64,000 nucleotides of DNA from an uncultured Clostridia bacterium (lineage in GTDB: Bacteria > Bacillota > Clostridia > Oscillospirales > Oscillospiraceae): contig CAMVAV010000003.1 in the NCBI GenBank assembly GCA_947165595.1, positions 1-64,000 on the forward strand. Reading direction: 5' to 3'. How positions within the stretch are numbered: position 1 is the stretch's first letter; every line of letters starts with the position of its first letter. The position numbers were made by a program, and so were the translations under genes. Below the pieces are notes generated by a model. The model was not told the DNA's origin, did not search any database, and saw only the letters and a program-made list of their open reading frames with translations. Shown here piece by piece: positions 30,602 to 50,684 of the stretch.

Positions 30602-31678
30602 TCATTCCCCGCGCAGGGCGCGCCCGAGCATCCGCTCCACGCGTTTTGCCTGCGCAAAGCGCCGCGCGTGGTTCTCACGCGCCTCGTCCGTTTTGCATTT
30701 CTCATAGCTCGACGCAAAGCGCGCCTCCAGCGTGACGCGCTCCGTCCCCCGCGTCTGCTTGTCCGCGAGGTACAGCACCGCCGCCTCGTCCGGCAGCCGC
30801 TCATGCTCCGGCGACAGCTCGTGGTGGCTTTCCACCGCCTCCGCCGCCCGCGGATAGCCCAGCGCGCGGAGCCACGCCGCGCCCGTGCGCGCGTGCTCCG
30901 TCTCCGTCCGCGCCACGTCGTGCAGCAGCGCCGCCGCGCGCAGCAGCGCCGCGTCGAGCGCGTACCCGTGTTCTTTAAGCGCCGCCGCCAGCTCCTCCGC
31001 ACGCGCCGCGACCGCCCTTGCGTGGGCGCGGACCGGCTCCGGCGTCCCCGCGGCGTCCAGCAGCCGCTCGCACAGTTCCGGCGTCAGCGGCGGCGGATCG
31101 GGCAGCGCGGCGAGCCGTTCGATCGTCCATGCCGAACCGTCAAGGCGAAGCGTGCTCACACAGCCCAAGGGCTGCGGCAGGCGCCAGAATTCGTTTCCGT
31201 CCCGCCCGCTCAGCGCGCACAGCAGCAGCCGGTTCACCCCCGCGTGCGCGACGACCGCGATATCGCCCGACGAGCGCCCCAGACACTCCTCCAGCGCCGT
31301 GCGCGCGCGTCTCCGGCAGTCCGCCGGCGCCTCGCCCCCCTCGGGAAAGCAGGTGAACGGCTCCCGCCCCCTTTTCTCGTAGAGCGCCGGAAAACGCCGG
31401 CGTATTTCGTCGAAGGAAAGTCCCTCCCAGCAGCCCATGCCGAGCTCGCGCAGGTCCTCTACGGTCTCCGCCCCGCGTCCGAGCGCCTCCGCGGTCTCCC
31501 GCGCGCGGCACAGCGGACTCGTAAACACGCGCGTCACCTCCGGCAGCGTCTCCGCCAGCAGCGCGGCGCGCATGCGTCCGAGCGCGCTGAGCGGCACGTC
31601 CGTCGCGCCCAGGCAGACAGGCCCTTCCGCGGGAAGCTCCGGCTCGCAGTGGCGGAGCAGATACACCGTCCTTGCCAT
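30602..31678 (-). CDS. histidine phosphatase-HD domain fusion protein
   Basis: A 358-aa two-domain protein. The N-terminal half is a phosphoglycerate-mutase-like histidine phosphatase: LLRHCEPEL holds the catalytic His, then FTSPLCRARETAE, and VVAHAGVNRLLL has the second His. The C-terminal half is an HD phosphohydrolase: HARAVAARAEEL, ALLHDVART (HD) and VESHHELSPE. It starts four bases after the XdhC gene stop, so it is the third gene of the MocA-XdhC transcript. Such fusions accompany molybdenum hydroxylase maturation genes. Clearing a phosphorylated nucleotide or pterin by-product is a plausible but untested role. Confidence 0.82.
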   Translation of the reverse strand: MARTVYLLRHCEPELPAEGPVCLGATDVPLSALGRMRAALLAETLPEVTRVFTSPLCRARETAEALGRGAETVEDLRELGMGCWEGLSFDEIRRRFPALYEKRGREPFTCFPEGGEAPADCRRRARTALEECLGRSSGDIAVVAHAGVNRLLLCALSGRDGNEFWRLPQPLGCVSTLRLDGSAWTIERLAALPDPPPLTPELCERLLDAAGTPEPVRAHARAVAARAEELAAALKEHGYALDAALLRAAALLHDVARTETEHARTGAAWLRALGYPRAAEAVESHHELSPEHERLPDEAAVLYLADKQTRGTERVTLEARFASSYEKCKTDEARENHARRFAQAKRVERMLGRALRGE

Positions 31679-31682
31679 GCGC

Positions 31683-32594
31683 TCAGCCGGAGATGTCCTC
31701 GACCAGTATTTTGAGCGAGCCGCCGCACGCCATGCCCTCGTCCGCGGCGACCTCGTTGCTCAGATCCGCGTCGACGACCTCCGCGCGCCCCGTGCCGATC
31801 AACCGCTCCGCCTTGCGCAGCGCCTCCGCCTCGCAGCAGCCGCCGCCGATCGTGCCCGCGCTCCGCCCCGCCTTGTCGACGATCATCATGGAGCCGGTCT
31901 TCGCGGGCGTGGAGCCGCGGCTTTCCAGCACCAGCAGCATCGCCTTGGGCGTCTGCGTGTCGGCGGCGAAGCGAAGCAGCGCCTCATCCGCGTCCGTCCG
32001 CTCCAGATACGACTCGTCCGTCGGACGGGAACGGCGCGCCAAAATCAGCTCCGCCGCGATGGAGACCGCGATCTCCATCGGCGTGAGCGCCTTGATCGGG
32101 ATGCCGATGGGCGTGTGGACGCTGCGGATGCGCTCCGGGTCGAAGCCCTCCTCCTCCAGCAGCTTGAGCTGCACGGCGGTCCGACGGCGCGAGCCGATCA
32201 TGCCGAGATAGTACGGCATCTCCTCCCCGGGCAGGATCGCGCGCAGACAGTCCCCGTCGAAGCGGTGCCCGCGCGTAATGACGCAGACATAGTCGAGCGG
32301 ACGGATGCGCAGCGCGCGGATCGCCGAGGCAAAATCGTCGCACACGATCTCCGCAGCGTCCGGAAAGCGCGTCCGGTTCGCAAACTCCGGCCGGTCGTCC
32401 ACGACCGTCACGGCGAATTCCAGCTTCGCCGCCAGCTCCGCCACCGCCTGGGAAACATGCCCCGCGCCGAGCAGGATCAGCCGCTCCGGCCGCGCAAAGC
32501 GCCTTGTGTAGAGCCTTCCGTCCACCGTGCGCGTCAGCGCCGCCTCGCGTCCCTCCGCCAGCTGCTCCAGCAGCGCCGCAAATTCCTCTGTCAT
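31683..32594 (-). CDS. xdhC: XdhC/CoxI family molybdenum-hydroxylase maturation protein, domains in swapped order
   Basis: XdhC-type chaperone, 303 aa, thought to hold Mo cofactor during sulfuration and insertion into xanthine-dehydrogenase-type enzymes. A Rossmann domain comes first (LILLGAGHVSQAVAELAA, VTVVDDRPEFAN, residues about 40-190, ending near IGIPIKALTPMEIAVSIAAE). The XdhC_CoxI part follows (LESRGSTPAKTGSMMIV, GTIGGGCCEAEAL). In the better-known XdhC and PucA proteins the CoxI part is N-terminal, so the order here is reversed. It lies between the MocA-ModE fusion and the phosphatase-HD gene, with a TTTTGAATAACG element just upstream. Confidence 0.85.
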   Translation of the reverse strand: MTEEFAALLEQLAEGREAALTRTVDGRLYTRRFARPERLILLGAGHVSQAVAELAAKLEFAVTVVDDRPEFANRTRFPDAAEIVCDDFASAIRALRIRPLDYVCVITRGHRFDGDCLRAILPGEEMPYYLGMIGSRRRTAVQLKLLEEEGFDPERIRSVHTPIGIPIKALTPMEIAVSIAAELILARRSRPTDESYLERTDADEALLRFAADTQTPKAMLLVLESRGSTPAKTGSMMIVDKAGRSAGTIGGGCCEAEALRKAERLIGTGRAEVVDADLSNEVAADEGMACGGSLKILVEDISG

Positions 32595-32624: not shown

Positions 32625-32636
32625 TTTTGAATAACG
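32625..32636. promoter_or_regulatory. TTTTGAATAACG element before xdhC
   Basis: The 12-base sequence is identical to two copies at 50152-50163 region of the aldehyde-oxidoreductase control region. It lies in the 63-base gap between the MocA-ModE gene and xdhC. Confidence 0.55.
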
Positions 32637-32657: not shown

Positions 32658-33626
32658 TCACGTCGTTCCGGCTTCCCCGTCCTTAAGCCGCCCGTTCAGC
32701 GCGCCGAAGGAGCGTTCAAACGCCGCGCGGCTCGCTGTCAGCAGCTCCCCGACGAAGCCGCGGTACGCCGCGAGCAGCGCCCGCCCGTCCGCGGTTAGCA
32801 TCGTACCGCCGCCCTCCGCGCCGCCGACGCTGCGCTCCGTGAGCCGCAGCCCCAGCTCGCGCTCCATGTCGCGCAGCCGCGTCCAGCCCCGGGTGTAGGA
32901 GATGTGCACGCAGGCGCACGCGCGCTGGATGGAGCCGGTCTGCCCGATCATCTCAAGGAACTGCGCGTCCTCCGGCCCGAACAGACAGCCGCCGCGGCCG
33001 ATCTGGATGTGCAGCTTCGGCCAGAAGCCGTCGCCGCTCCGCTCCACGGAATACTGCCTGCGGATCTTGAGCAGGTCCTCCTGCGTGTCCGCGTCCAGCG
33101 TGCAGCCGTAGTCGTCCACGGGCAGGTCCACCGCCGCGACCGCCAACTCCCGCAGCGCGCCGTTCAGCCCGCCCGCGCCCCTGAAGTCGAGCAGCGCCGG
33201 GATCAGCGCCGCGTCCAGCAGCAGCGGGTGTCCGGTCTTCCCGTCGTGCACGGGGCGGACCGCCTGCCCCTCCTGCGCCATCATCGCGCGCAGGGTTTCC
33301 GCGCGCATCAGGGGGATATCCCCCGGCGTGAGAAACAGCCTGTCGCAGGGCTCGCGCAGCGAGGCGATGCCGATCTTGAGGGAGTGGAGCATCTGCGTGT
33401 CCGTGTAGCTGTGATTCAGCACGACGCGCACGTCCCGGTCCCGCAACGCGCGTTCCAGCTCGTCGCCCCGATAGCCGCCGACGACCACGATCTCGCCGAC
33501 GCCCGCGTCGCGCATGCTGCGCACGATGCGCGCAACGATCGCCTCCCCGCCCACCTGGACGAGGGGTTTAAAATCCCGCATGCGCGAGGAGAGCCCCGCC
33601 GCCGCGATCACCGCCGATACCTTCAA
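32658..33626 (-). CDS. MocA-like nucleotidyltransferase fused to ModE-like HTH domain
   Basis: A 322-aa fusion. Residues 1-200 form a MobA/MocA-type NTP transferase (VSAVIAAAGLSSRM, then PLVQVGGEAIVARIV, LFLTPGDIPLM, GHPLLLD), which would cytidylate or otherwise load molybdopterin. Residues about 215-315 are a ModE-type LysR-like winged helix (FGPEDAQFLEMIGQTGSIQR, YTRGWTRLRDMERELG, GGGTMLTADGR). The start is taken as TTG 33626 with GGGTGG six bases upstream; no ATG fits. It matches the NTP transferase of the Desulfovibrio DVU_1551 cluster type. The HTH suggests that the cofactor-loading protein itself regulates the Mo genes. Confidence 0.83.
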   Translation of the reverse strand: MKVSAVIAAAGLSSRMRDFKPLVQVGGEAIVARIVRSMRDAGVGEIVVVGGYRGDELERALRDRDVRVVLNHSYTDTQMLHSLKIGIASLREPCDRLFLTPGDIPLMRAETLRAMMAQEGQAVRPVHDGKTGHPLLLDAALIPALLDFRGAGGLNGALRELAVAAVDLPVDDYGCTLDADTQEDLLKIRRQYSVERSGDGFWPKLHIQIGRGGCLFGPEDAQFLEMIGQTGSIQRACACVHISYTRGWTRLRDMERELGLRLTERSVGGAEGGGTMLTADGRALLAAYRGFVGELLTASRAAFERSFGALNGRLKDGEAGTT

Positions 33627-33662
33627 GCTTCCACCCCCGTCCGAAGCAGCCGCAGCCGACCA

Positions 33663-33708
33663 ATATTCATTCTTCTGAATATCGTTATCATGCCATACCG
33701 CCGCCGCT
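33663..33708 (-). promoter_or_regulatory. promoter and ModE-like operator of the MocA operon
   Basis: On the minus strand TTGACA (33708-33703) and a weak CATGAT (about 33685-33690) are spaced 17 bases. Immediately downstream is a perfect inverted repeat ATATTCA-N6-TGAATAT (33663-33682) next to CGTTAT. ModE operators also have AT-rich half-sites with a six-base centre, so autoregulation by the fused HTH is likely. Confidence 0.55.
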
Positions 33709-33720
33709 TTGTCAAGCGAC

Positions 33721-33777: not shown

Positions 33778-35256
33778 TTACTTCTTGTCCGCGGCGATGC
33801 GGTCCTTGTTGATGGAGCGCCACAGATCCTTGTCGACGCCGTCAAACGGCAGCTTGTCGGGATCGTAGTACGGGTCCTTGCCGGCGTCCATCTGCGCGCG
33901 ATAGTCCTTGTAGAGCGCGAACGCCTTCGGAGCGAGGAACCAGAGCATGATGGTCTGGAACCAGGTCACGGAGCCGAGCGCCAGGTCGGACAGGTCCCAG
34001 GCCATGCTGGCGGGGACGATGCCGTAGATAACCACGAGGACGATCATGACGACCTTGAGCACGAGCTGGAAGGTCTTGCGCTGCTTCTCCTTGCCGTCGC
34101 CCTGGAACAGGTACAGCAGGGAGGTCTCCGCCTCATAGTAGTAGGACACGATGCAGGTGAAGGAGAACAGGAGCAGCATGACCGCGACGAACCACTGGCC
34201 GAAGCCGGCGATCACGGAGTCACAGGCAGCCTGCACGAAGCCGACGCCGCCCTCCTGACCGGCAACGGCAGCCGCGCCCTGATAACCGGAGGCGGTGTTG
34301 AAGCAGCCGGTGAGAAGGACCATGAACGCGGTGCAGGAGCAGACCACGATGGTATCCAGGAACACGCCCGCGGCGTTCGCGAGGCCCTGCTTGACGGGGT
34401 GGGAGGTCTCCGTCGCGGAGGCGGCGGGGACGGCCTCGCCCATACCGGAGGCGCTGGAGAAGGTACCGCGCTGCACGCCCTGACGGATCGCCGTGCCGAT
34501 CGCGCCGCCGATGACGGCGTCCTTGCCGAAGGCGCCCTTGAAGATCATGCCGAACACGGCGGGGATCTGACCGATATTCGCGACCACGATGATGATCGTG
34601 AAGAGCAGGTACGCGACCGTCATGAACGGGACGACCAGGGAGGCGAAGTCACCGATGCGCTTGATGCCGCCGATGATGATGACGCCGAGGATGGCGGCAA
34701 CGATCAGGGACGTGACCCACATCGGGACGCCCGCGGCGTTCTTGAAGGAATCGCTGATGGTGTTGGTCGCGGCGGCGGGCATGAAGAGCGCCGCGCCGAG
34801 GCCGAGCGCGAGAGCGAGGATGGTGCCGTACCACTTCTTGTTCCAGCCGTACTCGGCGCACATGGCGCCGGAGCCGCGGTACTCGCCGTCGATCTTCCTC
34901 TTGTAGAGCTGGCCGAGGGTGCACTCCACGAAGTTGACCGCCGCGTTGGTGATGCCGATGATCCACATCCAGAAGATCGCGCCGGGGCCGCCGCGATAGA
35001 TCGCGACCGCCACGCCCGCGACGTTGCCGGTGCCGATGCGCATCGCCATCGTGGTGCAGAACGAAGCGAAGGTGGAAATGCCGGATTCAGACTTTCCGCC
35101 GGAGAAGATGCGCTTCCACATATCGCCGTGGTGGGTGATCTGGAAGAACCCGAGCTTGATCGAGAACCAGATACCGCCGCCGCCGATGATGATCAGCATG
35201 CCGATTCCCCAGAAGAAACCGTTTAGGGTCCCTACCAGACTGCTAATTGCTTCCAT
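33778..35256 (-). CDS. AGCS family sodium:alanine-type symporter
   Basis: Na+-coupled amino-acid symporter, 492 aa and about 11 membrane segments, normal for the alanine:cation symporter family. The signatures TFASFCTTMAMRIGTGNVAGVAVAIYRGGPGAIFWMW and FVECTLGQLYKRK are intact. It begins 58 bases after the hydroxyproline dehydratase stop with no clear terminator between, so it is probably the third gene of that transcript. The cargo could therefore be proline or hydroxyproline rather than alanine (contextual inference). Confidence 0.9.
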   Translation of the reverse strand: MEAISSLVGTLNGFFWGIGMLIIIGGGGIWFSIKLGFFQITHHGDMWKRIFSGGKSESGISTFASFCTTMAMRIGTGNVAGVAVAIYRGGPGAIFWMWIIGITNAAVNFVECTLGQLYKRKIDGEYRGSGAMCAEYGWNKKWYGTILALALGLGAALFMPAAATNTISDSFKNAAGVPMWVTSLIVAAILGVIIIGGIKRIGDFASLVVPFMTVAYLLFTIIIVVANIGQIPAVFGMIFKGAFGKDAVIGGAIGTAIRQGVQRGTFSSASGMGEAVPAASATETSHPVKQGLANAAGVFLDTIVVCSCTAFMVLLTGCFNTASGYQGAAAVAGQEGGVGFVQAACDSVIAGFGQWFVAVMLLLFSFTCIVSYYYEAETSLLYLFQGDGKEKQRKTFQLVLKVVMIVLVVIYGIVPASMAWDLSDLALGSVTWFQTIMLWFLAPKAFALYKDYRAQMDAGKDPYYDPDKLPFDGVDKDLWRSINKDRIAADKK

Positions 35257-35314
35257 TGACGTTTTCCCTCCTAAATTTTGTTTTTTCTATCCCCTGACAG
35301 AGCCTCCGCGGCGG

Positions 35315-37771
35315 TCAGCAGCAGCCGCAGCCGCCGAAGCTCTGCTCGGTCCGTTCGATAATCTCGCCCTGCAGCTTGGAGTCGAGATTGCGGAAGTAGT
35401 CGCTGTAGCCCGCGACGCGGACGATCAGCTCCTTGTACTCGTCGGGCCGCTTCTGCGCGTCAATGAGCGTCTCGCGGTCGATGACGTTGAACTGGACGTG
35501 GTGGCCGTCCATCGCGAAGTAGGAGCGGATGAGCGCCGCCAGGTTGGCGATGCCCTCCTCGCCCGCCAGCGCCGACGGGGTGAACTTCTGGTTGAGCAGC
35601 GTGCCGCCGGTGGAGCAGTGGTCCATCTTCGAGCAGGACTTGATGACCGCCGTGGGGCCGTTGATGTCCGCGCCCTTCTCCGGGGAGATGCCCTCGGACA
35701 GCGGCATGTGCGCGAGGCGGCCGTTCGGGGAGGCGATCATCACGTCGCCGAAGTAGACGTGGCAGGTCGTCGGCAGCATGTCGACGTGGTACTGCCCGCC
35801 GCGGATGTTCGGGCGGCCCGTGATGTAGTCCTTGTACTCGTTGAAGACGGTCTGCATGATGCTGTCGGCATAGTCGTCGTCGTTGCCGTACTTGGGCGTC
35901 TTGTTCTTCACAAGGTTGTGGATGATCTCGTGGCCCTTGAAGTCGTCGTTCATCGCCGCAATGAGCTCCGCCATCGTGAACTTCTTCTCGTCGAAGACGT
36001 TGTACTTGATCGCGGACAGGCAGTCGGAGATCGTGCCGATGCCGACGCCCTGGATGTAGCTGGTGTTGTAGCGCGCGCCGCCGGCGTTGTAGTCCTTGCC
36101 CTTCTTGATGCAGTCGTCCGTGCAGATGGACAGGAACGGGGCGGGCATCATCTCGGCGTAGATCTTCTCGATGACGAGATTGCCGCGCATCTTGACGTCG
36201 ATGATGTGCTCGAGCTGGGTCTTGAACGCCGTCCAGAGCTCGTCGTAGGACTTGAAGTCCTCCGCCTTGCCGGTGTGCGGGCCGATCTGCTTCTTGAACA
36301 TCGGGTCATAGCCGTCGTAGAGCGCGAGCTCCAGGCACTTCGGGATGTTCAGATAGCCGGTGAGGATGTACGCCTCGGTGCCCCACGCGCCGGTCTCGAC
36401 GCAGCCGGAGCAGCCGGAGTTGCGCGCGTCAACGATGCTCTTGCCGGCGAGCAGCAGCTCCTGAATGAGCTCGTCCGTGTTGTAGAACGCGGGCTGGCCC
36501 CAGCCCTGACGGGCGATCTCGCAGGCGCGGCGCAGGAACTTCTCCGGCGTCTTCTTGGAAATCTGCACGTTGGAGTTGGGCTGGTTCTGGCGCATGTCCT
36601 CCATGCAGTCGAGGATCAGGTAGGAGACCGCGTTGACGCCGTCGGAGCCGTCCTCCTTCAGTCCGCCGGAGTTGATGTTCGCGAAGTCGACATAGGTGCC
36701 GGACTCCTTGAGCGTGACGCCGACCTTGACGGGCGCGGGGGAGTTGAACAGCTTCACCCACAGGCACTCGAGCAGCTCGAGCGCGCGGGTGTCGTCCAGC
36801 GTGCCGGCGGCGATGTCCTTCTCATAGAACGGGATCAGGTGCTGGTCGAGACGGCCGGGCGTGAACGCGTCCCAGGGGTTGAGCTCCAGCGTGACGCCGA
36901 GGTGCGTGAACCAGTACATCTGCAGCGCCTGCCAGTAGGTCTCGGGCTTGTGCGCCGGAACGACGGCGCAGTTCGCCGCGATCTGCTCCAGCTCCGCCTT
37001 GCGCTGCGGGTCCTCGCACTTCGCCGCCATCTCGAGGGCCAGGTCATGATAGCGCTGACCGAGGATGCACACGGCGTCGCAGTCGATCGCCATCGCGCGC
37101 AGCTCCTGCTCCTTGTCGTAGGCGTCGGGATCGTTGAAGTAGTCGAGGTTTTGGATCGCCTCCTCGATCTCCGCCTTGTAGTCGAGGTAGCCCTTGATGT
37201 AGAAGTTCTTGCCGCCGGCGGTGTGGCCGGGGCCGCGCTGCTCCATGAACTCGGTGAACATGCCGACCTCATAGCAGTCGCGCCACTCCTGCGTCATCGC
37301 CTTGAGAAGATGCTCGCGCACCGCGCGGTCCTTCCAGTAGGGGATAATGACCTTCTCCTGCAGCTCGAGGTCCTCCTGCGTGACGGTGAAGTTGACCAGC
37401 TTGCGGTCGTTCATGATGTGCATGTCCTCGATCGTATGGCAGCACAGCTCGGGGAAGGTCGGGGAGCACTGGGGGTCCTTGCCCTTCTCGCCGACGATCA
37501 GCTCGTCGTCGCCGAGATAGAGGGTCTTTTTGGAGAAGTACTCCTTGAGCACCATCGCGCGCAGGACGGGAATGGAAACGGAGCCCTCGTACTGCTTGTA
37601 GACCTCCGTCTCAATCTTCGCGCGCTCCATGTCGATGTGCGGCTGCGTGGCGTGGCTGATCCTTCTCAGGCGCTTGATGCGCTCGGTGCAGCCGCGCTCG
37701 TTGTCCTTCAGCAGCCGCTCGGGCGTATTGACGTTGAAGGAAGTATCCTGCTGGTTTGCGGCGTTTGCCAT
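35315..37771 (-). CDS. hypD: trans-4-hydroxy-L-proline dehydratase (glycyl radical enzyme)
   Basis: Glycyl radical enzyme, 818 aa, removing water from trans-4-hydroxy-L-proline to give pyrroline-5-carboxylate. The radical Cys lies in NSGCSGCVETGAWGTEAY and the C-terminal glycine loop is RVAGYSDYFRNLD. The CVE context fits dehydratases rather than pyruvate formate-lyase. The protein ends FGGCGCC. The activating-enzyme gene is four bases upstream and proC lies next to it, the same association described for clostridial HypD. The enzyme is oxygen-sensitive and cytoplasmic. A propanediol or other dehydratase is less likely given proC. Confidence 0.87.
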   Translation of the reverse strand: MANAANQQDTSFNVNTPERLLKDNERGCTERIKRLRRISHATQPHIDMERAKIETEVYKQYEGSVSIPVLRAMVLKEYFSKKTLYLGDDELIVGEKGKDPQCSPTFPELCCHTIEDMHIMNDRKLVNFTVTQEDLELQEKVIIPYWKDRAVREHLLKAMTQEWRDCYEVGMFTEFMEQRGPGHTAGGKNFYIKGYLDYKAEIEEAIQNLDYFNDPDAYDKEQELRAMAIDCDAVCILGQRYHDLALEMAAKCEDPQRKAELEQIAANCAVVPAHKPETYWQALQMYWFTHLGVTLELNPWDAFTPGRLDQHLIPFYEKDIAAGTLDDTRALELLECLWVKLFNSPAPVKVGVTLKESGTYVDFANINSGGLKEDGSDGVNAVSYLILDCMEDMRQNQPNSNVQISKKTPEKFLRRACEIARQGWGQPAFYNTDELIQELLLAGKSIVDARNSGCSGCVETGAWGTEAYILTGYLNIPKCLELALYDGYDPMFKKQIGPHTGKAEDFKSYDELWTAFKTQLEHIIDVKMRGNLVIEKIYAEMMPAPFLSICTDDCIKKGKDYNAGGARYNTSYIQGVGIGTISDCLSAIKYNVFDEKKFTMAELIAAMNDDFKGHEIIHNLVKNKTPKYGNDDDYADSIMQTVFNEYKDYITGRPNIRGGQYHVDMLPTTCHVYFGDVMIASPNGRLAHMPLSEGISPEKGADINGPTAVIKSCSKMDHCSTGGTLLNQKFTPSALAGEEGIANLAALIRSYFAMDGHHVQFNVIDRETLIDAQKRPDEYKELIVRVAGYSDYFRNLDSKLQGEIIERTEQSFGGCGCC

Positions 37772-37775
37772 CGTG

Positions 37776-38919: not shown

Positions 38920-38941
38920 GAATGATATAAACCATTTTGAT

Positions 38942-41382: not shown

Positions 41383-42012
41383 CTATTCCGATTTTTCCCC
41401 GATCCAGAGATAATATCCCGGCTTCAGGTCCTCCGCCCGGTTCGCGCGCAGCAGCGCGCACGCGTCCTCTCCGCCGGAGAGCATCGCCCCCGCCCAGAGA
41501 GACACCAGTGCCTCGCTCTGATCCTCGAACAGCGCTTCGCGAAAGCCCGCGCGCGAAAATCGCTCCGCGAGCGCCGCGCGGCTCTCGACGCGGCCCATCG
41601 CGCTTTTGGTGTGTTCCCCTCCGTCGCGGGCGTAAAGGTCGCTCACGATCAGGCGCCCGCCGGGACGCAGCACGCGCGCGCACTCCGCGAGCGCCGCGTC
41701 CGCGTCCTCAATCTGGGAGAGCGTACACTCGAGCAGCACGCCGTCGAAGGACGCCGCCTCAAACGGCAATTTCTCCGCGCGCGCGTGAATGACGCCATCC
41801 GCGCAGAGTGACGCGTCCGCTTCGACGCCGAGCGCCTCACAGCCGCAGCGTTCGCGCAGAAAGCGCAGCGTTTCGCCGCGCCCGCAGCCGACGTCCAGCA
41901 CCCGGCTTTCCCCGGAAATGCCGCTCAGCCCTGCGGCGCGCTCCGTCAGCGGCAGTCCGCCGGGGCGCTGCCCCTCCGGCGCGTCGCCGCACAGCGCCGT
42001 CCACCAGCTCAT
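41383..42012 (-). CDS. class I SAM-dependent methyltransferase (DVU_1556-like, TrsM type)
   Basis: Rossmann-fold methyltransferase of 209 aa: motif I VLDVGCGRGETLRFL, motif II GVEADASLC, motif IV FDGVLLECTLSQIED and post-motif VLRPGGRLIVSDLY. The start MSWWTALCG overlaps the stop of the radical SAM gene (ATGA). A frame extending upstream is rejected. The pairing with a radical SAM protein and a CoA ligase in a molybdenum-hydroxylase neighbourhood is that of the Desulfovibrio DVU_1551-1557 group. The substrate is unknown. Confidence 0.8.
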   Translation of the reverse strand: MSWWTALCGDAPEGQRPGGLPLTERAAGLSGISGESRVLDVGCGRGETLRFLRERCGCEALGVEADASLCADGVIHARAEKLPFEAASFDGVLLECTLSQIEDADAALAECARVLRPGGRLIVSDLYARDGGEHTKSAMGRVESRAALAERFSRAGFREALFEDQSEALVSLWAGAMLSGGEDACALLRANRAEDLKPGYYLWIGEKSE

Positions 42013-43295
42013 GGCGCGTACCCCGTCAGATACGCCGCGCAGAACGGCAGCAGCCGCCCGTCGCGGCAGACGTGGAGGCTGCACCGGCGCAGGCGCTCGA
42101 CGTCCAGATTCCCCGCGTCCTGAAACGCCATCGCGCTGACGGTGAAGCCGTGCGCGCGCTTCCAGAGGAGGAAGCCGTCGAGCGAATGGGGGTCGGCGTC
42201 ATCGCAGCAGCAGGCGTCCCCCGCGCCCGACCAGCGCTTTCCGATGTAATTGCGGTTCCGCTCCGCCGAATCACGCGCGCCGCAGCAGCTCTCCGCCGCC
42301 TCGCCGCGCTTTGTCAGCGGCTCGAGCCGTCCGCCCGGCAGCGCGATATACTCCCCGTGCAGCCCGCAGAGCGGATGGTCGCAGGCGGAGGGGATCAGGC
42401 TCTCGCGCGTGATCGCGCCGCCGGTCTGCTCCACCAGCGCGTCGATCAGCTCGCCGAGCGTATAGCGGTCCTTATCCTTCGGCGGGGACGGCACGCGCCC
42501 GAACCAGCTCACGGGCTGGAAGTGGACGCCCCGCACCGCCGGGGTATGGGCGGCGGCATAGCGCACAAGCGCCCCGATCTGATCGGTGTTGACGCCCGGC
42601 ACGAGCGTCGGCACCAGCGTCACGCCGATGCCGTTTTTGGCGCAGGCCTCGATCGCCGCCTCCTTGACGCGCAGGAGCGGCCGGCCGCGCAGGGTCTCAT
42701 AGATATCGTCCCGCACGCCGTCGAACTGCAAAAACACGATGTCCGTTCCCGCCTCCGCCAGCGCCCTGACATAGCCCGGATCGGCGGCGAGGCGCAGTCC
42801 GTTCGTGTTGACCTGCACGAAGGAGCAGCCCGCCCGCTTGGCGTGAGCGGCAAGCTCCGGCAGGTCGTCGCGCAGCGTCGGCTCGCCCCCGCTGAGCTGG
42901 AGCAGCGGCGCGCCCGCCTTTTTCACAATGTCGTCGATCCGCGCGCGCAGCAGCTCGCCGTCCGGGTCGCCGCCGCTGCCGCCGTCCGCGAAGCAGAACC
43001 GGCAGCGGAGGTTGCAGCGTCCCGTCACCTCCAGCAGCACGCAGCAGGACTTGCGCAGATGCCTGTCGCAAAGCCCGCAGCCCTCCGGGCAGCGCAGCCC
43101 CTCCTCCGCGCCGTACTCCGGCAGCGCGCCGGTCCACGAGTCGATATCCTCGCTCCCGCGCCAGACCACGGCGGAAAAGTCCCCGTGCTCCGGGCAGGTC
43201 TTTTCCAGGACCCACGCGCCGCCGCGCCGGACCCGTTTCGCCGGGACGCGGCGCAGGCAGACGGGGCAGACGCTCGCGGTCCTTCTTCCGTTCAT
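42009..43295 (-). CDS. radical SAM protein (TrsS type)
   Basis: A 428-aa radical SAM protein with MoaA-like extension. An N-terminal zinc-type pair (CPVCLRRV, CPEHGDF) and CPEGCGLCDRH precede the SAM cluster motif GRCNLRCRFCF (near residue 105). LSGGEPTLR binds SAM, and the C-terminus is again Cys-rich (CSLHVCRDGRLLPFC). Homologues in this family sometimes contain selenocysteine; here the positions are Cys. It is coupled by ATGA overlaps to the CoA ligase before and the methyltransferase after it. A role in making a modified cofactor or peptide for the Mo enzyme is a reasonable guess. Confidence 0.82.
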   Translation of the reverse strand: MNGRRTASVCPVCLRRVPAKRVRRGGAWVLEKTCPEHGDFSAVVWRGSEDIDSWTGALPEYGAEEGLRCPEGCGLCDRHLRKSCCVLLEVTGRCNLRCRFCFADGGSGGDPDGELLRARIDDIVKKAGAPLLQLSGGEPTLRDDLPELAAHAKRAGCSFVQVNTNGLRLAADPGYVRALAEAGTDIVFLQFDGVRDDIYETLRGRPLLRVKEAAIEACAKNGIGVTLVPTLVPGVNTDQIGALVRYAAAHTPAVRGVHFQPVSWFGRVPSPPKDKDRYTLGELIDALVEQTGGAITRESLIPSACDHPLCGLHGEYIALPGGRLEPLTKRGEAAESCCGARDSAERNRNYIGKRWSGAGDACCCDDADPHSLDGFLLWKRAHGFTVSAMAFQDAGNLDVERLRRCSLHVCRDGRLLPFCAAYLTGYAP

Positions 43296-44563
43296 GTCTC
43301 CCGTCCGCCTCCCTTCGTCAGTGCGCGCTTGTCCATCCCCGTGCCCGAAAAGCCGCGGAGCGTCCGGCATTCCAGCTCGACGCGCAGCCCCCTTGCCGCG
43401 CCCGACGCAAGAAGCGCCGCGCGGAGCGCGCCCTTGTCCGGCGGCTCAAGTCCAAAAACAGTGAGATAAAGGGCTTCCCCCTCCGCGCGCGCGCAAAAAT
43501 CCACCGCGCCGTCGCAGGAGAAGATCGCGCCGTCCAGCTCCCACAGGGAGAGCCTCTCATCCGTCCGCGCGGCGCGCCCGCCCTCCGGAACGACGCGCGC
43601 GAGCCGGCTCCCGCAGCCGCAGCGCTCCGTCCGCAGCACGCCCAGATCGCCGCTCCGATAGCGCAGAAAGGGCATCGCCTCGCGCCGCAGCGTCGTAAAG
43701 ACGAGCTCGCCCCGCTGTCCCGGCGGCAGCGGCGCGCCGGTTTCGGGGTCGATCACCTCGACCAGAAGGTCGTTCTCCCGCACATGGCAGCCCCGGTGCG
43801 CGGCGCACTCCACCGCGCCGCCGTAGCCCAGCTCCGTCATGCCGAAGTGTGTGAACACCGGACAGCCCAGCAGCGCCCCGACGCGTTTGACCAGCGCGGG
43901 ATGCGCGGCGTCGGCGCTGAGCAGCACCGAGCGGAGCCGCAGCCGCTCCGGCTCCGGCAGCGCCGCCCCATAGCAGGCAAGGCCGAGCACCTGCACGGGG
44001 ATGCCCACCGCGCAGCCGCAGCCGGCCTCCCGCAGGGCGCGATAGGTCGCCGCGACGTCGGTAACGGGGCCGAGCTTCACAGCCTCGGCGGGGATGCGCG
44101 CAAGGCCGCGCGCGAGCAGGTCGCCCACGCTCCCCGGCTGCTCCGACGGCATCAGAATGCCGACGCGCTCGCCGGGCGCGATCAGCTCCCGCATCCCATG
44201 CGTAAAGAAGTCGACCGTGCGCTCCAAATCGCTTTCCGTGAAGAAAACACGCTTGGGCTCCGCCGTCGTGCCGGAGGTCTTGAGCGTCACGATCCGCCCG
44301 ACCCGCGACGCGGCGCAGCACAGCCAGTCCCCGCCCCGCGCGCGCAGCTGCTCCGCCGTCGTCAGCGGCAGCAGCGGCAGGTCGGCGCGCGCGCGCAGAC
44401 AACTCGGATCGACGCCGCGCAGCAGCTCCGCGTAAAACCGGCTTTTTTCGCGCGCGTACACGACCGTCTCGCGCAGGCGCGCCATCTGCCACGCCTCCAG
44501 CGCGGCGCGGTCCTTGCAGCCGGTGTCGGCGAGCACCCAGCGCTCCAGCGGTCCGCCGCTCAC
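43292..44563 (-). CDS. AMP-dependent CoA ligase (phenylacetate-CoA ligase-like, DVU_1553 type)
   Basis: Short adenylate-forming enzyme of 423 aa. LKTSGTTAEPKRVFF is the P-loop, HFGMTELGYGG the A5 motif and LRYRSGDLGVL the A7/A8 hinge region. It activates a carboxylic acid as acyl-AMP and likely acyl-CoA. It starts with GTG that overlaps the TGA of the mini redox gene (GTGA). Upstream frame extension is rejected. Combined with a molybdenum aldehyde oxidoreductase, it could supply or consume the acid/aldehyde pair, or act in cofactor modification; sequence does not decide. Confidence 0.83.
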   Translation of the reverse strand: MSGGPLERWVLADTGCKDRAALEAWQMARLRETVVYAREKSRFYAELLRGVDPSCLRARADLPLLPLTTAEQLRARGGDWLCCAASRVGRIVTLKTSGTTAEPKRVFFTESDLERTVDFFTHGMRELIAPGERVGILMPSEQPGSVGDLLARGLARIPAEAVKLGPVTDVAATYRALREAGCGCAVGIPVQVLGLACYGAALPEPERLRLRSVLLSADAAHPALVKRVGALLGCPVFTHFGMTELGYGGAVECAAHRGCHVRENDLLVEVIDPETGAPLPPGQRGELVFTTLRREAMPFLRYRSGDLGVLRTERCGCGSRLARVVPEGGRAARTDERLSLWELDGAIFSCDGAVDFCARAEGEALYLTVFGLEPPDKGALRAALLASGAARGLRVELECRTLRGFSGTGMDKRALTKGGGRET

Positions 44564-44751
44564 TTGTTCTCCAGCTCCATCTCCACCTCCGCCACGCGCC
44601 CGCGCACCAGCTCCTCGGAGAGGTAGACCTCTCCGCATTTGGGACAGCGCGGGGCGTCGGCAAAGAAGACGTGCCCCAGATATTCAAAGTCCACCCGCCG
44701 CGGTTCCAGCGGGCAGCCGCATTTGCCGCAGAGCATCTCCCGTTCAGCCAT
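44560..44751 (-). CDS. 63-aa redox protein with two CxxC pairs (DVU_1557-like)
   Basis: A small zinc-ribbon or rubredoxin-like protein. MLCGKCGCPLEPRRV holds the first pair and RCPKCGEVYL the second, spaced about 30 residues, which would bind Zn or Fe. The C-terminal helix is acidic (RVAEVEMELENK). The start overlaps the end of the large oxidoreductase gene by eight bases and its stop overlaps the CoA ligase start. Electron transfer to or from the neighbouring flavoprotein, or a structural zinc role, are both possible. Confidence 0.82.
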   Translation of the reverse strand: MAEREMLCGKCGCPLEPRRVDFEYLGHVFFADAPRCPKCGEVYLSEELVRGRVAEVEMELENK

Positions 44752-46987
44752 TGTCGTGTCCCTCCACGATGCGCATCCGGTGCGCGTAGGCGTTGAGCAG
44801 CTCGAAGCCCTCCCCTGCCGCGCGGTACTCGACCCAGACGGTGGCGTTCCCCACCTGCGCGTGGCCCGCGCGGCTGTCCGTCTCCGGGTCGCGGAGGAAG
44901 CGTCCGCTCTCCTCGCAGCGCAGCACGGCGGCCTCTGCGTCCTCGCGCAGCAGGTGGTCGCGATCCAGCTTCGTCAGCAGCTCCGGCGCGATCGAAAGTC
45001 TGATTTTCGGTTCCTCCATCGGCGTCACCTCCCCGGGGGTAAAGCGCTCCTGCAAGCGCCGCTTGAGCGCGCGCCGGTTGTCGCGGCTCTCGCTGGCGGT
45101 AGGGGCTTTCCGCTCCCAGTCGGGAGCGGAGAACAGCAATTCGAGAATATGCGCCGCGCGCTTCCCCGCCGACGCGAACACGTCGCGGCAGTTGGCGCAG
45201 TACGCGAGGTACGGCGCGTCCCCCTCCCCCGCACGGCTTTTCGTCACGTCGGAGGCGTAGCCGGGATTCGAGAGCGCCACATGTCCGCCCCAGCCGCAGC
45301 AGCGGGCGTATTTGCCCTCCATGCGCAGCGGCTCGAGCCGCCAGCCCGCCTTCTCCGCCAGCGAGCGCACGGCGCGCTGCGCGTCGGGCCAATCCCGGCT
45401 CGAGCAGGGGTCGAACACCGACACGGTCTCCCCCGCGCCGCGCTTCGGCACGGGAAAGCCCTCGTCCAAAACCTCGTAGAGCGAGACGGACGCCATCTCG
45501 GGCAGATAGCGCGCGAACTCCCTCCGACAGCTCATGCAGGCGAACACCGGCGTCGGCTCGCCGAGGGAGCGCCACGCCGCGCGCAGCCGCTCCAGCACCG
45601 CCTCATGCAGCTCCGTCCTGCCCGCCCACGACGCGCCCGCGCCGCAGCAGCCGAGCAAAACGGCGCTGTCGGGCGCGACCGTCCGCAGCGCGTCGAAGCT
45701 CCGCTCGACCAGCTCCGGGCTCGACCCGCTCAGGCGGCAGCCGGGGAAAAAAAGATACCGCGGCGTCTTCGTTTCGGAGGGCGAGAGACAGAGCCACGCC
45801 TCCCCGTTCGCGAATTCCAGGTCGCGCAGCCAGAACTCGTGGAACGCCCAGGGCATCGCGCCCAGCTCCTGCATTTTTCTCTGGCTCTCCAGCAGAAACG
45901 CCCCCGTGTCGATCCCCGCGGGGCAGACCGCCTTGCACAGCCCGCAGTGGTCGCAGGCGGCGATCAGCCGCGTCGCGAGCCGCGCCTTGCGCGAGAGGCT
46001 GACCGGCTCGATGGTCGTCGTGACCTCCTCCTCGAGGCGGCTGGGGTACTTCTGGTTGCTGCGCATCAAATCGCAGTACGTCACGCAGGCGTCGCAGCGG
46101 CACTCCCGGCAGCGCTGCGCCTCCGCGACCGCCTGCTCCGGCGTATAGCCTCCCTCCCCCGGCGCCACGGCGGGCGCGGGCGCGGGCAAAAGCGCGGGGT
46201 CCGGGTGAAAGCGGGTGGAGCCGTCGCGAAACGGCTCGTTCCTCCCGCCGGTCTTGAGATAGCGTTCGACGGCGCGCGCGGCGGTCAGCCCGTCGGCAAT
46301 GGCGGCGACCGGGTCCCTCCCGACGAGCCCTCCGCCGAGGAAGACGCCTTCGCGTCCGCTCGCGCACGCGCCCGTGCCGGAGAGCGTCATGCCGAAGGCG
46401 TCGCCGCCGCGCCCGGTGGCAAGGTATATCGCCTCCGCGTCCAGCTCCGAGAGGTCGCGCACCTCCGTCTCATAGCGGAACTCCACCGTCTCGTGCATGA
46501 ACTGCATGTCGAGCTCCGCGTCCAGCGCCTCGTCCGGCAGCAGGCCGCGCAGCGAGCCGCCGCGCCGCGCGCCGCGCTCGTAGACCGTGACGGCGTACTT
46601 CTTCGACGCGAGCCGCAGCGCGCAGGCAAGCCCGCTCGGCCCCGCGCCGACGACGGCGATACGCTCCTTTCGCTTCGGCAGATTGTAGCGGTTGGGCCTT
46701 GGGTTCGGCGTGTGCGCCGCCGCGGCGCGCTCCAGCTCCCGCAGGGAGATCGCGCCGTTCCTCTGCGCGAAAACGCACGCCCCCTCGCAAGGATGCGGAC
46801 AGACGCGCGAAACGATCCCCGGAAACGCGGTCGCGTCCCGGTACATCCGATAGGCGGCGGCGAACGCGCCGCGCTTGAGATGCGCGACAAACGCGCGCAC
46901 GTCCAGTCCGAAGGGGCACTCCGCCGCGCAGGGGGGCGGATCGTTCTGCATGCACAGGGCCTCCAGCTGTTCCTTGAAGCTCGCCAT
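44744..46987 (-). CDS. FAD/NAD(P)-dependent oxidoreductase with Fe-S dicluster and CCG domains
   Basis: A 747-aa electron-transfer protein. The N-terminal Fe-S domain of the GltD/DPYD type (CAAECPFGLDVRAFV, CPHPCEGAC) is followed by a flavin Rossmann domain (IAVVGAGPSGLACALRLA). Next comes a ferredoxin-like cluster (CRECRCDACVTYC, CDHCGLCKAVCPAGI) and heterodisulfide-reductase-like CCG segments (FFPGCRLSGS, GCCGAGASW, ARCCGWGGH). A C-terminal domain of about 130 aa is specific to this cluster. It would connect NAD(P)H with the Mo enzyme or a disulfide. It is the first gene of the coupled operon, with its own promoter. Confidence 0.85.
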   Translation of the reverse strand: MASFKEQLEALCMQNDPPPCAAECPFGLDVRAFVAHLKRGAFAAAYRMYRDATAFPGIVSRVCPHPCEGACVFAQRNGAISLRELERAAAAHTPNPRPNRYNLPKRKERIAVVGAGPSGLACALRLASKKYAVTVYERGARRGGSLRGLLPDEALDAELDMQFMHETVEFRYETEVRDLSELDAEAIYLATGRGGDAFGMTLSGTGACASGREGVFLGGGLVGRDPVAAIADGLTAARAVERYLKTGGRNEPFRDGSTRFHPDPALLPAPAPAVAPGEGGYTPEQAVAEAQRCRECRCDACVTYCDLMRSNQKYPSRLEEEVTTTIEPVSLSRKARLATRLIAACDHCGLCKAVCPAGIDTGAFLLESQRKMQELGAMPWAFHEFWLRDLEFANGEAWLCLSPSETKTPRYLFFPGCRLSGSSPELVERSFDALRTVAPDSAVLLGCCGAGASWAGRTELHEAVLERLRAAWRSLGEPTPVFACMSCRREFARYLPEMASVSLYEVLDEGFPVPKRGAGETVSVFDPCSSRDWPDAQRAVRSLAEKAGWRLEPLRMEGKYARCCGWGGHVALSNPGYASDVTKSRAGEGDAPYLAYCANCRDVFASAGKRAAHILELLFSAPDWERKAPTASESRDNRRALKRRLQERFTPGEVTPMEEPKIRLSIAPELLTKLDRDHLLREDAEAAVLRCEESGRFLRDPETDSRAGHAQVGNATVWVEYRAAGEGFELLNAYAHRMRIVEGHDNG

Positions 46988-47120: not shown

Positions 47121-50054
47121 TCAGAACGGCTTCGCCGCGTCCTTGTCGTCCAGCGGCGTATAGAAGCTGTCGCCGCCGAAGGCGACGGGATGCGCCTTGA
47201 TGTTCGCCAGCTCCTCGTAGAGGTCGCTGCCGAGGAAGTAGGGCTCGGGCTTGTAGGGCTCCTTGCCTGCGGCGATGGCGTCCATGCCCGCCTTGATCTT
47301 CTCCGGCGACGCCGGCAGCTCGTAGATGCGCACGCCCGTGGCGTTCTTGATGCCGTTGATGACCGCCACGTGGCCGGACGCCTGGAACGCCTCGGACGCG
47401 CCGGAGGAGCCGAAGGGTCCGATCTCGTCGGGACGCTCGTAGAAAATCACGTTGATATCGTCCGGCGTGTCGTTGCAGTAGGGCACGCCCGCGCCGTAGA
47501 TGTTGGCGTGCTTCTTCACGTCGTCATAGTTCTCGGTCAGCGCGAAGCCGATGGAGTGCGAGATGCCGCCGTACGCCTGGCCGAGGACGGAGGCGATGTT
47601 GCCGGGCCTGCCCACGTCGCAGACGCAGGCGAAGCGGATGCACTGCGCCTTGCCGGTCTTGGTATCGACCTCGACCTCCGCGATGTTGAAGCAGTAGGTG
47701 TAGGTGGGATTGGGGTTGCCGACGCCCGTGTTCGGGTCCATGCGGCAGAGCTTCGCGCCGCGCGGCTGTACGGTCGTGTTGCTGTAGCGGCCGTGATAGC
47801 GGGTCGGGAGCCCCTCGGCGACCATCTCGTCATAGGTGCGGTAGCTGCCGTCCGGCTTGCGCATGGCGTCGAGCAGCTTGTTCGCCGCGTCGATCGTGGC
47901 GCGCCCGCTCATGAAGTGCGTGCGGCTCGAGCCGGACATGCCGGAGTCGGGGCAGAGCTTGGTGTCGTTCTGCACCAGCTTGACCTGCTCGGGCTTAATG
48001 CCCAGCGGCTTGAGCGCCTCGAGCGTGAGCATCAGCGAGCCGATGTCGCCGCCCTGGCCGAGCTCCTGATAGGTGTCGTACTTGGTGATCGTGCCGTCGG
48101 GATTGAGCTCAAGGTCGGCGCACGCCTCGTCGGTCGCGCCCTCGGTGACGTTGAAGCCGCCCCACGAAACGCCGACGCCGCGCTTCTTCTCCGGCGTGGA
48201 GGTCTCTCTGGCGTGCTGCTTCATCTCCTCGTAGACGGGCTTCGCCTTCTTCATCAGCTCCTCCATCGGGTACTGCGGATGCTCGTAGCTCGCGGTGCCG
48301 AGCTCGCCCTCGCGGGTGATGTTGCGCCAGCGAAGCTCGAAGGGATCGAGCCCCAGCTTCTCCGCCATCATGTCCATCATGGACTCGGAGTGCATGTACG
48401 CCTGCGGCGAGCCGTAGGAGCGGTAGGCGGTGGCGAAGTTGTGGTTGGTGTTGGCGATACGGCCCAGCGCGGCGATGTGCGGCACGTTGTACGGGAAGTA
48501 GGCGTGGCGCACGACCTTGGTGATCAGGTCGTCGCCGCCCCAGGAGTACGCGCCGTGATCCACGCCGAAGTCGAACTCGACCGCGAGGATCTTGCCGTCG
48601 TTGTCGCAGGCGAGGCGGCCGTTGGAGTAGGCGGGCGCGCGCTTGCCGGAGAAGTGCTGGTGCTCCTCATAGGTCATGGAGAGCGACACCGGCATGCCCG
48701 TTACGACCGTACACGCGCCGCAAAGGGCGAGGTCGCCGGCGTTGGTCGACCAGCCGAAGCTCGCGCCGGTCGGGTTCATCAGCACGCGCATCTTGTTCGT
48801 CGGCACGCCGAGGCTGCCGCCGATGCGGCTGATGGAGGAGTAGACGCCCTGGCTCTTGCACTGGAAGGTCAGGTAGCCGTCCTCGTCGAAGTAGGACTGC
48901 AGCACGTCGCCCTCGATGGACATGTGCGGCTCGCGCGTGGTGTAGAACGAGCCCTCGACCACGTTGGGCGCGTTGTCGATCATCTCGCGCACCTTCTCCG
49001 CGTCCTCGAGGCCCGCGCCCTTGAGCAGGGGCTGCTCGCAGTAGATGTTGGGCGTGTCGTCGTGCACGCGCACGGCGTCGGGCATGACCGCCTCGAGATA
49101 GTTGAGCATCTCGGGCAGCTTTTCGATGTCGACCGTCACCTTCGCGGCGGCGGCGCGGGCGTGGGCGCGGGTATCGGCGCAGACGACCGCCACTACGTCG
49201 CCCCAGCGGAAGAGCTTCTCGTCGCACAGCACGCGGCGGGAGGACTCGAGCACGGTGGAGCGCTCGTGGAACTGGCCCTCGGCAAGGATGTTCGTGCCGC
49301 CGGCGGCCTTGAGCGCCTCGGCGGTGACGACCTTGTAGACGCCGGGCATCTTCTCGGCCTCCTCGGTGTGGATGGCGAGGATCTTCGCGTGATGCGCCAC
49401 GCGCGGCTGCACGATCGCGCCGAAGAGCGTGTTCTCCGGGAAGGAGAGCTCCTGGTCGTCGCCGTAGTCATAGGTGCCGGTGACCTTTGCCAGCGCCGTC
49501 GGGCGGACCAGCGGCTTGCCGTAATACTCTCCGTCCTCGGGCAGCTTCACGGTGATGTCGTCGATCGTCGCCTCGCCGCGCATAACCTTCGCCGCCGCCA
49601 TGACCGCGTCGATGATCTGCTTGTAGCCCGTGCAGCGGCAGACGTTCTTGTGCTTGGTGAACCACTCCCTCGCCTCCTGACGGGTGGGGTTGGGGTTCGA
49701 CTGGAGCAGCGCGTAGGTCGATACGATAAAGCCCGGGATGCAGAAGCCGCACTGGAGCGCGCCGTACTGCATGAACGCGACCTGGATCGGGTGCAGGTGC
49801 GTCGGCGTGCCGATGCCCTCGATCGTCAGCACGGTGCTGTACTCCTCGATCATGCGGATCTTGCGGGTGCAGGAGCGGATCAGCTCGCCGTTGAGGATCA
49901 CCGAGCAGGAGCCGCACACGCCGGTGCCGCAGCCGACCTTCGTACCCGTGAGACCCATGCGGCGGAGCACGTCCGCCAGCGTATCCGTCTCCGGGTCGAC
50001 GGTGAACACGCGGTTGACGCCGTTGATGTTGAGCCACATCTTTCTAAGTTTCAT
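47121..50054 (-). CDS. molybdenum hydroxylase (aldehyde oxidoreductase/xanthine dehydrogenase type), single chain
   Basis: Molybdopterin hydroxylase of 977 aa without a FAD domain, the architecture of Desulfovibrio Mop. The N-terminal plant-type 2Fe-2S domain shows GCGTGVCGSCSVILNGELIRSC, the second 2Fe-2S domain GALQCGFCIPGF and CRCTGYKQI. The Mo-binding domains follow (KVTGTYDYGDD, TGASFGWS, GQGGDIGS, GGISHSIGFALTE with the catalytic Glu). It oxidises aldehydes or N-heterocycles using water. The start MKLRKMW has GGAGG six bases upstream. A promoter with two TTTTGAATAACG repeats lies upstream. It is transcribed on its own, next to its accessory operon. Confidence 0.9.
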   Translation of the reverse strand: MKLRKMWLNINGVNRVFTVDPETDTLADVLRRMGLTGTKVGCGTGVCGSCSVILNGELIRSCTRKIRMIEEYSTVLTIEGIGTPTHLHPIQVAFMQYGALQCGFCIPGFIVSTYALLQSNPNPTRQEAREWFTKHKNVCRCTGYKQIIDAVMAAAKVMRGEATIDDITVKLPEDGEYYGKPLVRPTALAKVTGTYDYGDDQELSFPENTLFGAIVQPRVAHHAKILAIHTEEAEKMPGVYKVVTAEALKAAGGTNILAEGQFHERSTVLESSRRVLCDEKLFRWGDVVAVVCADTRAHARAAAAKVTVDIEKLPEMLNYLEAVMPDAVRVHDDTPNIYCEQPLLKGAGLEDAEKVREMIDNAPNVVEGSFYTTREPHMSIEGDVLQSYFDEDGYLTFQCKSQGVYSSISRIGGSLGVPTNKMRVLMNPTGASFGWSTNAGDLALCGACTVVTGMPVSLSMTYEEHQHFSGKRAPAYSNGRLACDNDGKILAVEFDFGVDHGAYSWGGDDLITKVVRHAYFPYNVPHIAALGRIANTNHNFATAYRSYGSPQAYMHSESMMDMMAEKLGLDPFELRWRNITREGELGTASYEHPQYPMEELMKKAKPVYEEMKQHARETSTPEKKRGVGVSWGGFNVTEGATDEACADLELNPDGTITKYDTYQELGQGGDIGSLMLTLEALKPLGIKPEQVKLVQNDTKLCPDSGMSGSSRTHFMSGRATIDAANKLLDAMRKPDGSYRTYDEMVAEGLPTRYHGRYSNTTVQPRGAKLCRMDPNTGVGNPNPTYTYCFNIAEVEVDTKTGKAQCIRFACVCDVGRPGNIASVLGQAYGGISHSIGFALTENYDDVKKHANIYGAGVPYCNDTPDDINVIFYERPDEIGPFGSSGASEAFQASGHVAVINGIKNATGVRIYELPASPEKIKAGMDAIAAGKEPYKPEPYFLGSDLYEELANIKAHPVAFGGDSFYTPLDDKDAAKPF

Positions 50055-50111: not shown

Positions 50112-50140
50112 AGTATATACGCCGCCCGTCCGCCTGTCAA
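50112..50140 (-). promoter_or_regulatory. promoter of the aldehyde oxidoreductase gene
   Basis: On the minus strand TTGACA (50140-50135) and TATACT (50117-50112) are spaced 17 bases. Confidence 0.8.
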
Positions 50141-50144
50141 TTAT

Positions 50145-50186
50145 CAATCTTTTGAATAACGCCTGCACAATCTTTTGAATAACGCC
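50145..50186. promoter_or_regulatory. tandem 19-bp repeats between divergent Mo-system promoters
   Basis: CAATCTTTTGAATAACGCC occurs identically at 50145-50163 and 50168-50186, period 23, about two helical turns. The pair sits directly upstream of the -35 box of the oxidoreductase gene and just upstream of the -35 box of the divergent C-GCAxxG-C-C gene, the place for a shared activator or repressor. Confidence 0.75.
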
Positions 50187-50196: not shown

Positions 50197-50225
50197 TTGA
50201 CATTCCGCGGCGGCAGGGCTATAAT
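50197..50225 (+). promoter_or_regulatory. promoter of the C-GCAxxG-C-C gene
   Basis: Perfect TTGACA (50197-50202) and perfect TATAAT (50220-50225), spacing 17. Confidence 0.88.
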
Positions 50226-50267: not shown

Positions 50268-50684
50268 ATGGACAACGATCGCATTCAAGAGCTGCTGGCG
50301 CAGCGGTTCCACTGCTCGCAGATCCTGATGAAATCCGGCATGGAGCTGCTCGGAAAGGACGACCCCGATCTGCTGCGCGCGATGAACGGGCTCGCGGGCG
50401 GGCTGGGCGGCTGCGGACGCAACTGCGGCGCGCTGACCGGCGGCGTGTGCATGTTCGGCCTGTTCCTCGGGCGCGGCACGCCGGAGGAGGCGGAAAACCC
50501 CGCGCTTTTCGAGCTGGTATCCGAATATCTCGCGTGGTTCGAGGAGACGTACGGCAGCCCCGACTGCGACACGATCCTCGAGGGCGATCAGGCCAACATT
50601 CCCCGCGTCTGTCCGGGGCTGATCGAGAGCGCCGTGGAGAAGGCGGCGGAGCTGCTGCGCGAACGCGGCTGTCTGCCGGAATGA
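50268..50684 (+). CDS. C-GCAxxG-C-C family redox protein (DVU_1555-like)
   Basis: A 138-aa protein with conserved cysteines: FHCSQILMK near the N-terminus, LGGCGRNCGALTGGVCM in the middle, PDCDTILEGD and PRVCPGLI later. The GCGRNCG pattern is a variant of the family's GCAxxG. It probably binds an Fe-S cluster or metal and works in redox. The start MDNDRIQ follows AAGGGAGG. It is divergent from the Mo enzyme gene under a common control region, and members of this family accompany the same accessory genes in Desulfovibrio. The UvrA-like gene follows 36 bases later. Confidence 0.82.
   Translation: MDNDRIQELLAQRFHCSQILMKSGMELLGKDDPDLLRAMNGLAGGLGGCGRNCGALTGGVCMFGLFLGRGTPEEAENPALFELVSEYLAWFEETYGSPDCDTILEGDQANIPRVCPGLIESAVEKAAELLRERGCLPE

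Follow-up and report, generated by a model that had tools for sequence, protein, structure and literature searches.

The window analysed here is the 64,000-nt stretch of contig CAMVAV010000003.1 (assembly GCA_947165595.1) from an uncultured Clostridia bacterium of the Oscillospiraceae. Its minus strand carries a gene (32658..33626) in which a nucleotidyltransferase is fused to a ModE-type winged helix-turn-helix (HTH) domain. The reading frame, uninterrupted by internal stops, runs from a TTG start codon at 33626 to a stop at 32658 and encodes 322 aa. The fusion gene heads an operon that also holds, on the same strand, the genes for an XdhC-family aldehyde oxidoreductase (AOR) maturation factor (31683..32594) and a histidine phosphatase-HD protein (30602..31678). 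A molybdopterin-dependent AOR (47121..50054, minus strand; NF045668), the probable client and second target of the fusion, is accompanied by a maturation cluster on the same strand (41383..46987) encoding a DVU_1556 methyltransferase, the TrsS radical SAM protein, a DVU_1553 AMP ligase and a dicluster-binding oxidoreductase. The AOR and its maturation genes span 41.4-50.1 kb, and a trans-4-hydroxyproline dehydratase cluster (AGCS transporter, HypD, activase and ProC; 33778-39760) separates them from the fusion operon.

The window also holds a LysR-type regulator near the AOR gene (53038-53961), for which the best model was the selenium-metabolism-associated LysR (103 bits, below its cut-off), and a glmS ribozyme (58372-58526; RF00234, 78.9 bits). 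An interspersed repeat, TTATTAAAACGATTGAAAAT, is present in some 20 identical copies on many contigs of the window's genome, G000 (for example C2:48481-48500, C4:694-713 and C6:23-42). No Moco riboswitch was found within the window, and control by such an element was dropped from consideration there.

The two domains of the fusion protein

The N-terminal NTP transferase domain comprises residues 4-191 (33054..33617, minus strand), with a Pfam NTP_transf_3 match over residues 5-161 (1.7e-32). The GxxxRMxxxK pyrophosphorylase signature (AAGLSSRMRDFKPL), the xDxPL motif (PGDIPL, within TPGDIPL) and GHP are all intact. The top NCBIfam models were NF045665, the DVU_1551-family NTP transferase (183 bits against a cut-off of 315, which was set for a full 359-aa NTPase+HD model whose HD half is absent here), and TIGR03310, MocA (105 bits against 186). 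Because both curated cut-offs were missed, this is a homologous domain and not a named DVU_1551 or MocA equivalog. The co-location of the fusion gene with XdhC and a molybdopterin-dependent AOR is nevertheless the genomic context of MocA and DVU_1551. In the neighbouring phosphatase-HD protein, the HD half matches the C-half of DVU_1551 as modelled, which shows that domains have been swapped between neighbours.

The ModE-type winged HTH occupies residues 217-290 (32757..32978, minus strand), with the GSIQ..ISYTRGW helix and the GGAEGGGTMLT wing. It matched the TIGR00637 ModE repressor domain (4.8e-14; 52 bits, below the 98.5 cut-off) and the E. coli ModE structures 1O7L/1B9M (7e-6). Domain search gave no TOBE/Mop match in the fusion, which terminates after a single long helix; as this feature was tested and is absent, a canonical molybdate-sensing ModE is ruled out. 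The predicted structure (mean pLDDT 85, pTM 0.66, leaving the relative placing of the domains uncertain) has a compact N-domain resembling MobA/MocA-related structures; the helices and paired strands that come after it are in keeping with a winged HTH. The sequence-only reading, that a MocA-like enzyme is fused to a ModE-type HTH lacking TOBE domains, was thus upheld by domain search in both halves and in what is missing, and alignment showed the HTH core, recognition helix and wing to be conserved across the fusions. No earlier report of an NTPase-ModE fusion was found in the open-access literature.

Predicted operators at the fusion operon and the AOR gene

The promoter ahead of the fusion gene is sigma-70-like (TTGACA-17-CATGAT, a TG preceding the -10 hexamer; 33687..33715, minus strand), and a putative operator, CGATATTCAGAAGAATGAATATTG, lies over the predicted transcription start (33661..33684, minus strand). 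The perfect repeat noticed at the outset, ATATTCA-N6-TGAATAT, is indeed exact at 33663-33682, the core of this operator, and sits on the start point that the promoter hexamers imply; extended, the operator reads CGATATTCA-GAAGAA-TGAATATTG on the coding strand. Since the start point is covered, the geometry is that of repression. These positions, like the intact catalytic motifs, are read directly from the sequence; that the fusion binds there, and in which direction it regulates, we infer.

A perfect 7-N6-7 palindrome is not in itself unusual in 64 kb, as simple base counting predicts about four in random sequence of that length and another is present in the window at 60455. The palindrome was therefore rejected as strong evidence on its own, and other evidence was needed. 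The significance of the operator lies in its position on the start point, in the distribution of the half-site CGWTATTCA, and in its being scored by a motif derived from relatives (see below). The window contains four copies of the half-site, every one of them at the fusion operon or at the AOR gene 16 kb away: once at the fusion promoter, as a tandem pair upstream of the AOR gene, and once, in isolation, in the gap between the fusion and XdhC genes (CGTTATTCA; 32628..32636, minus strand). Only 0.43 copies are expected per window, and four were reached in none of 100 shuffles. The relatives' motif gave its top score in the fusion upstream region to the same 22 bp (6.4 bits, p ~0.02), which marks the site as a divergent member; the window sites as a whole diverge from the family motif, the one at the fusion alone being perfectly palindromic. 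A 23-bp pattern built from both full sites had no further exact match in the genome (a pattern search in a genome 78% complete), a result that shows rarity and, given how the pattern was built, does not constitute independent support.

Upstream of the AOR gene, a 19-bp repeat, GGCGTTATTCAAAAGATTG, occurs in two exact copies, the nearer of which reaches into the -35 hexamer of the AOR promoter (TTGACA-17-TATACT; 50112..50140, minus strand). The first predicted operator, CGTTATTCAAAAGATTGATAATTG (50138..50161, minus strand), overlaps that hexamer, and the second (50161..50184, minus strand), formed by the other copy of the repeat, has a poor right half-site. A perfect divergent promoter, TTGACA-17-TATAAT (50197..50225, plus strand), serves the gene at 50268 (50268..50684, plus strand) for a small Cys-rich protein, which by eye we take to be C_GCAxxG_C_C-like. 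The position of the AOR operators, at or just upstream of -35, suits activation, and E. coli ModE also activates some operons, such as moa (PMC2408646). The fusion and its operator are confirmed as features of the locus, and regulation of its own operon and of the AOR gene by the fusion is likely.

Recurrence of the fusion and its operator in relatives

When the frequency of the fusion was surveyed within the same family, about 16 of 151 genomes had a full-length form. Scanning of GTDB contigs brought up 322 relatives, of which the best 80 were kept for analysis; all 80 of these loci encode the full fusion. Most of them belong to Oscillospiraceae and Lachnospiraceae, Blautia included, the remainder being listed under Tissierellia, Christensenellaceae, Veillonellaceae, Spirochaetaceae and Fusobacterium. 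The catalytic positions R-M-K-D-H are retained in 75 of the 80 kept fusions (L126 is truncated and L100 has a conservative change). A phosphatase/HD gene lies near the fusion in 66/80 kept loci and XdhC in 50/80, the usual arrangement being a fusion-phosphatase/HD-XdhC operon with the fusion first.

From 81 upstream regions, a de novo search for palindromes yielded the ModE-box-like motif GAATTGTA-N6-TACAATTC. Its log-likelihood was 385, against at most 84 in five dinucleotide-shuffled sets, a difference somewhat overstated because upstream regions from related MAGs are non-independent. Looking upstream of the relatives simply for perfect 7-N6-7 palindromes gave a mixed list, which the EM motif alone resolved. 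Scanning 907 kb with the motif returned 88 sites above 16 bits, compared with one in the reversed sequence used as a control, and 87 of these are located no more than 300 nt upstream of one of the following genes: the fusion, AOR (or a small gene before it), MoeA/ModA, the FecCD/Peripla_BP_2 transporter, a TylF-like methyltransferase, a DUF5714 gene and the phosphatase/HD gene. The motif was trained without the sites away from the fusion, and in relatives it is found again before AOR, before MoeA-ModABC and before FecCD-type transporter genes. A palindromic, N6-spaced operator at molybdenum-related genes is what the ModE family displays.

Individual loci vary. In L068 (43% identity), a perfect CGTTATTC-N8-GAATAACG stands 18 nt ahead of the fusion start, and the fusion heads genes whose translations resemble MoaA, MoaC, MOSC, MoeA, ModA, ModB and ModC. 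The closest relative, L067 (46% identity), has no clear operator. Placement of the window genome's own modA under the same box was rejected, as L146 carries no box.

Comparative genomics thus supports the part of the sequence-only reading that saw a ModE-type regulator with an operator at its own promoter; that picture was too narrow, however, in missing the recurrence of CGWTATTCA at the AOR gene. The fusion probably acts on the AOR gene here as well and, in relatives, on cofactor genes and those for molybdate uptake. Many Clostridia of gut and rumen share the fusion and its predicted sites.

The enzyme domain as a candidate sensor

We propose that the fusion is a bifunctional protein, a molybdenum-cofactor nucleotidyltransferase and a ModE-type transcription factor, with the NTPase domain as the likely sensor. 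The N-domain would add a nucleotide, probably CMP, to the molybdopterin cofactor for the AOR of the same region, while the C-domain, dimeric, would bind CGWTATTC-type boxes. At its own promoter, where the box covers the start point, binding would repress the operon of fusion, XdhC and phosphatase/HD genes; binding to the two tandem half-boxes just upstream of -35 would activate the AOR gene. Because the fusion is without a TOBE domain, the signal would most likely be cofactor or nucleotide occupying the nucleotidyltransferase domain. This model as a whole we hold with moderate confidence; the enzymatic activity and the ligand are parts of it that we infer.

If the NTPase domain carries the signal, repeated fusion, and retention of the domain after loss of its signature, are to be expected. 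Both appear to have happened. In L048 (8386-9393), a MocA-type NTPase of a different subfamily is joined to a ModE HTH; the gene lies with YqeC, SelD, YedE and XdhC in a cluster of selenium/XDH type. This is an independent MocA-ModE fusion, by which count the fusion arose at least twice. Seven fusions without the RM..K signature form one clade inside the intact fusions (rough support 94/76, and 81/83 when L141 and L092 are included), although the placement of long branches in this tree is uncertain and the position of L049 (branch 3.5) is unsafe. L162, considered as a further degenerate fusion, was rejected, its catalytic signature being intact. In L092 (4768-7918), one operon encodes an intact separate NTPase, XdhC and a signatureless NTPase-ModE fusion, and some signatureless fusions adjoin MoeA or FecCD-type transporter genes in place of XdhC.

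An enzyme domain that senses and reports is the best reading of the repeated fusion and of the NTPase domain kept in the signatureless clade, so that this domain is more likely than not a cofactor sensor, even if it may have been retained there for folding or dimerisation. The two halves could also be independent, a true ModE-type regulator beside an enzyme, with the HTH only autoregulating or reading molybdate in some other manner, as HTH-only ModE proteins may do, and the NTPase silent in signalling. Stand-alone, HTH-only ModE proteins do lie beside the same kinds of genes in the window genome and in relatives, such proteins without known sensing have been described before (PMC545781), and fusion could simply hold enzyme and regulator at a fixed ratio. 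We nevertheless think independence unlikely, since the NTPase domain persists in a clade devoid of its catalytic signature and two distinct NTPase subfamilies have been joined to the same HTH type.

Extending the proposed role of the NTPase domain to the family, nucleotidyltransferase-ModE HTH fusions may be proteins that sense the molybdenum cofactor, or the nucleotide form of it, and not molybdate. They would have arisen when the nucleotidyltransferase of the cofactor itself was joined to a ModE HTH, with most lineages using them as enzyme and regulator at once and one clade catalytically decayed into dedicated regulators. This generalisation we offer tentatively, as a serious possibility.

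Which ModE-type protein uses the boxes

The window genome also encodes a stand-alone ModE HTH protein, C93, adjoining yqeC-yqeB-selD, and the divergent yqeC promoter beside it contains a half-site similar to the window boxes. C93 could bind the same boxes, and cross-talk with the fusion is possible. The loci L046 (5469-5935) and L065 (4990-5014 and 7758-7781) show a stand-alone ModE HTH gene near yqeC/yqeB/selD with related CGTTATTC boxes at its promoter and, in G080, a box ahead of a YedE-like gene.

The operators might then belong to C93, with the HTH of the fusion having another role or none. C93 scores slightly ahead of the fusion on the ModE model (61 against 55 bits), its own promoter has CGTTATTC half-sites, and G080, a genome of the same genus without the fusion, has a box matching at 15 of 16 positions upstream of a YedE-like gene. 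However, the two best boxes in the window are those of the fusion and AOR genes, with no further exact match in the genome, and the core HTH residues are conserved among the fusions. Operators also persist in relatives that have no strong ModE-HTH match besides the fusion, as in G004, G051, G079, G110 and G137 (90-97% complete; other matches weak, at E >1e-4). Motif sites of 16-22 bits, near AOR or fusion genes, are found at four of these five loci (G137, G110, G004 and G079), and no candidate other than the fusion is evident there. Assignment of the boxes to C93 is thus improbable. That the fusion has no regulatory role, its HTH serving dimerisation or protein contact and the repeat being a chance palindrome of the kind expected in the window, is highly improbable given the conservation of operator, regulon and position in relatives and of the recognition helix and wing.

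Relation to known systems

The winged HTH of the fusion belongs to the same family as that of E. coli-type ModE (TIGR00637 plus TOBE), and the predicted targets in relatives, namely genes for molybdate uptake, for the cofactor and for molybdoenzymes, resemble those of ModE. The E. coli consensus, ATCGNTATATA-N6-TATATANCGAT (PMC545781), shares the N6 spacing and the outer CGNTAT with the window form, AACGATATTCA-N6-TGAATATTGGT, whereas the inner half-site is TATATA in E. coli and TATTCA or TTGTA in the fusion boxes. ModE carries molybdate-binding TOBE domains; the fusion has an N-terminal nucleotidyltransferase instead.

HTH-only ModE proteins (EF2572, PDB 2IJL and those of Desulfovibrio) have, like the fusion, the same HTH without TOBE. 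In the selenium/Mo-hydroxylase locus of E. faecalis, beside XdhC/AOR genes, the MobA-related, XdhC and ModE (EF2572) genes are separate (PMC2432076), and in Desulfovibrio an HTH-only ModE without an assigned sensor was noted in 2004 (PMC545781). These proteins are not fused to an enzyme, whereas the HTH of the fusion is linked to one and may show where their signal originates: they have long been without a known sensor, and the fusion family suggests the cofactor-loading nucleotidyltransferase as its source, offering single-protein systems with mapped predicted operators for probing it.

With DVU_1551 (NF045665) and MocA (TIGR03310) the fusion has its catalytic domain and its AOR maturation neighbourhood in common, but DVU_1551 is modelled as NTPase+HD and MocA as NTPase alone, while here the HD domain is on the phosphatase and a ModE HTH on the NTPase.

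Mechanistic analogues of the fusion are BirA and NadR, enzyme-repressors in which the domain that handles the cofactor signals to the DNA-binding domain attached to it; NadR includes a nucleotidyltransferase domain. Their HTH, cofactors and genes are unrelated to those of the fusion, in which the HTH is C-terminal, yet the comparison suggests that the fusion works most like one of them. If the proposed role is correct, both states of an enzyme-to-regulator transition are extant in this family. The Moco riboswitch, an RNA, is proposed to respond to the finished cofactor and not to molybdate and to control the same kinds of genes (PMC2408646); the fusion would be its protein counterpart in gut Clostridia.
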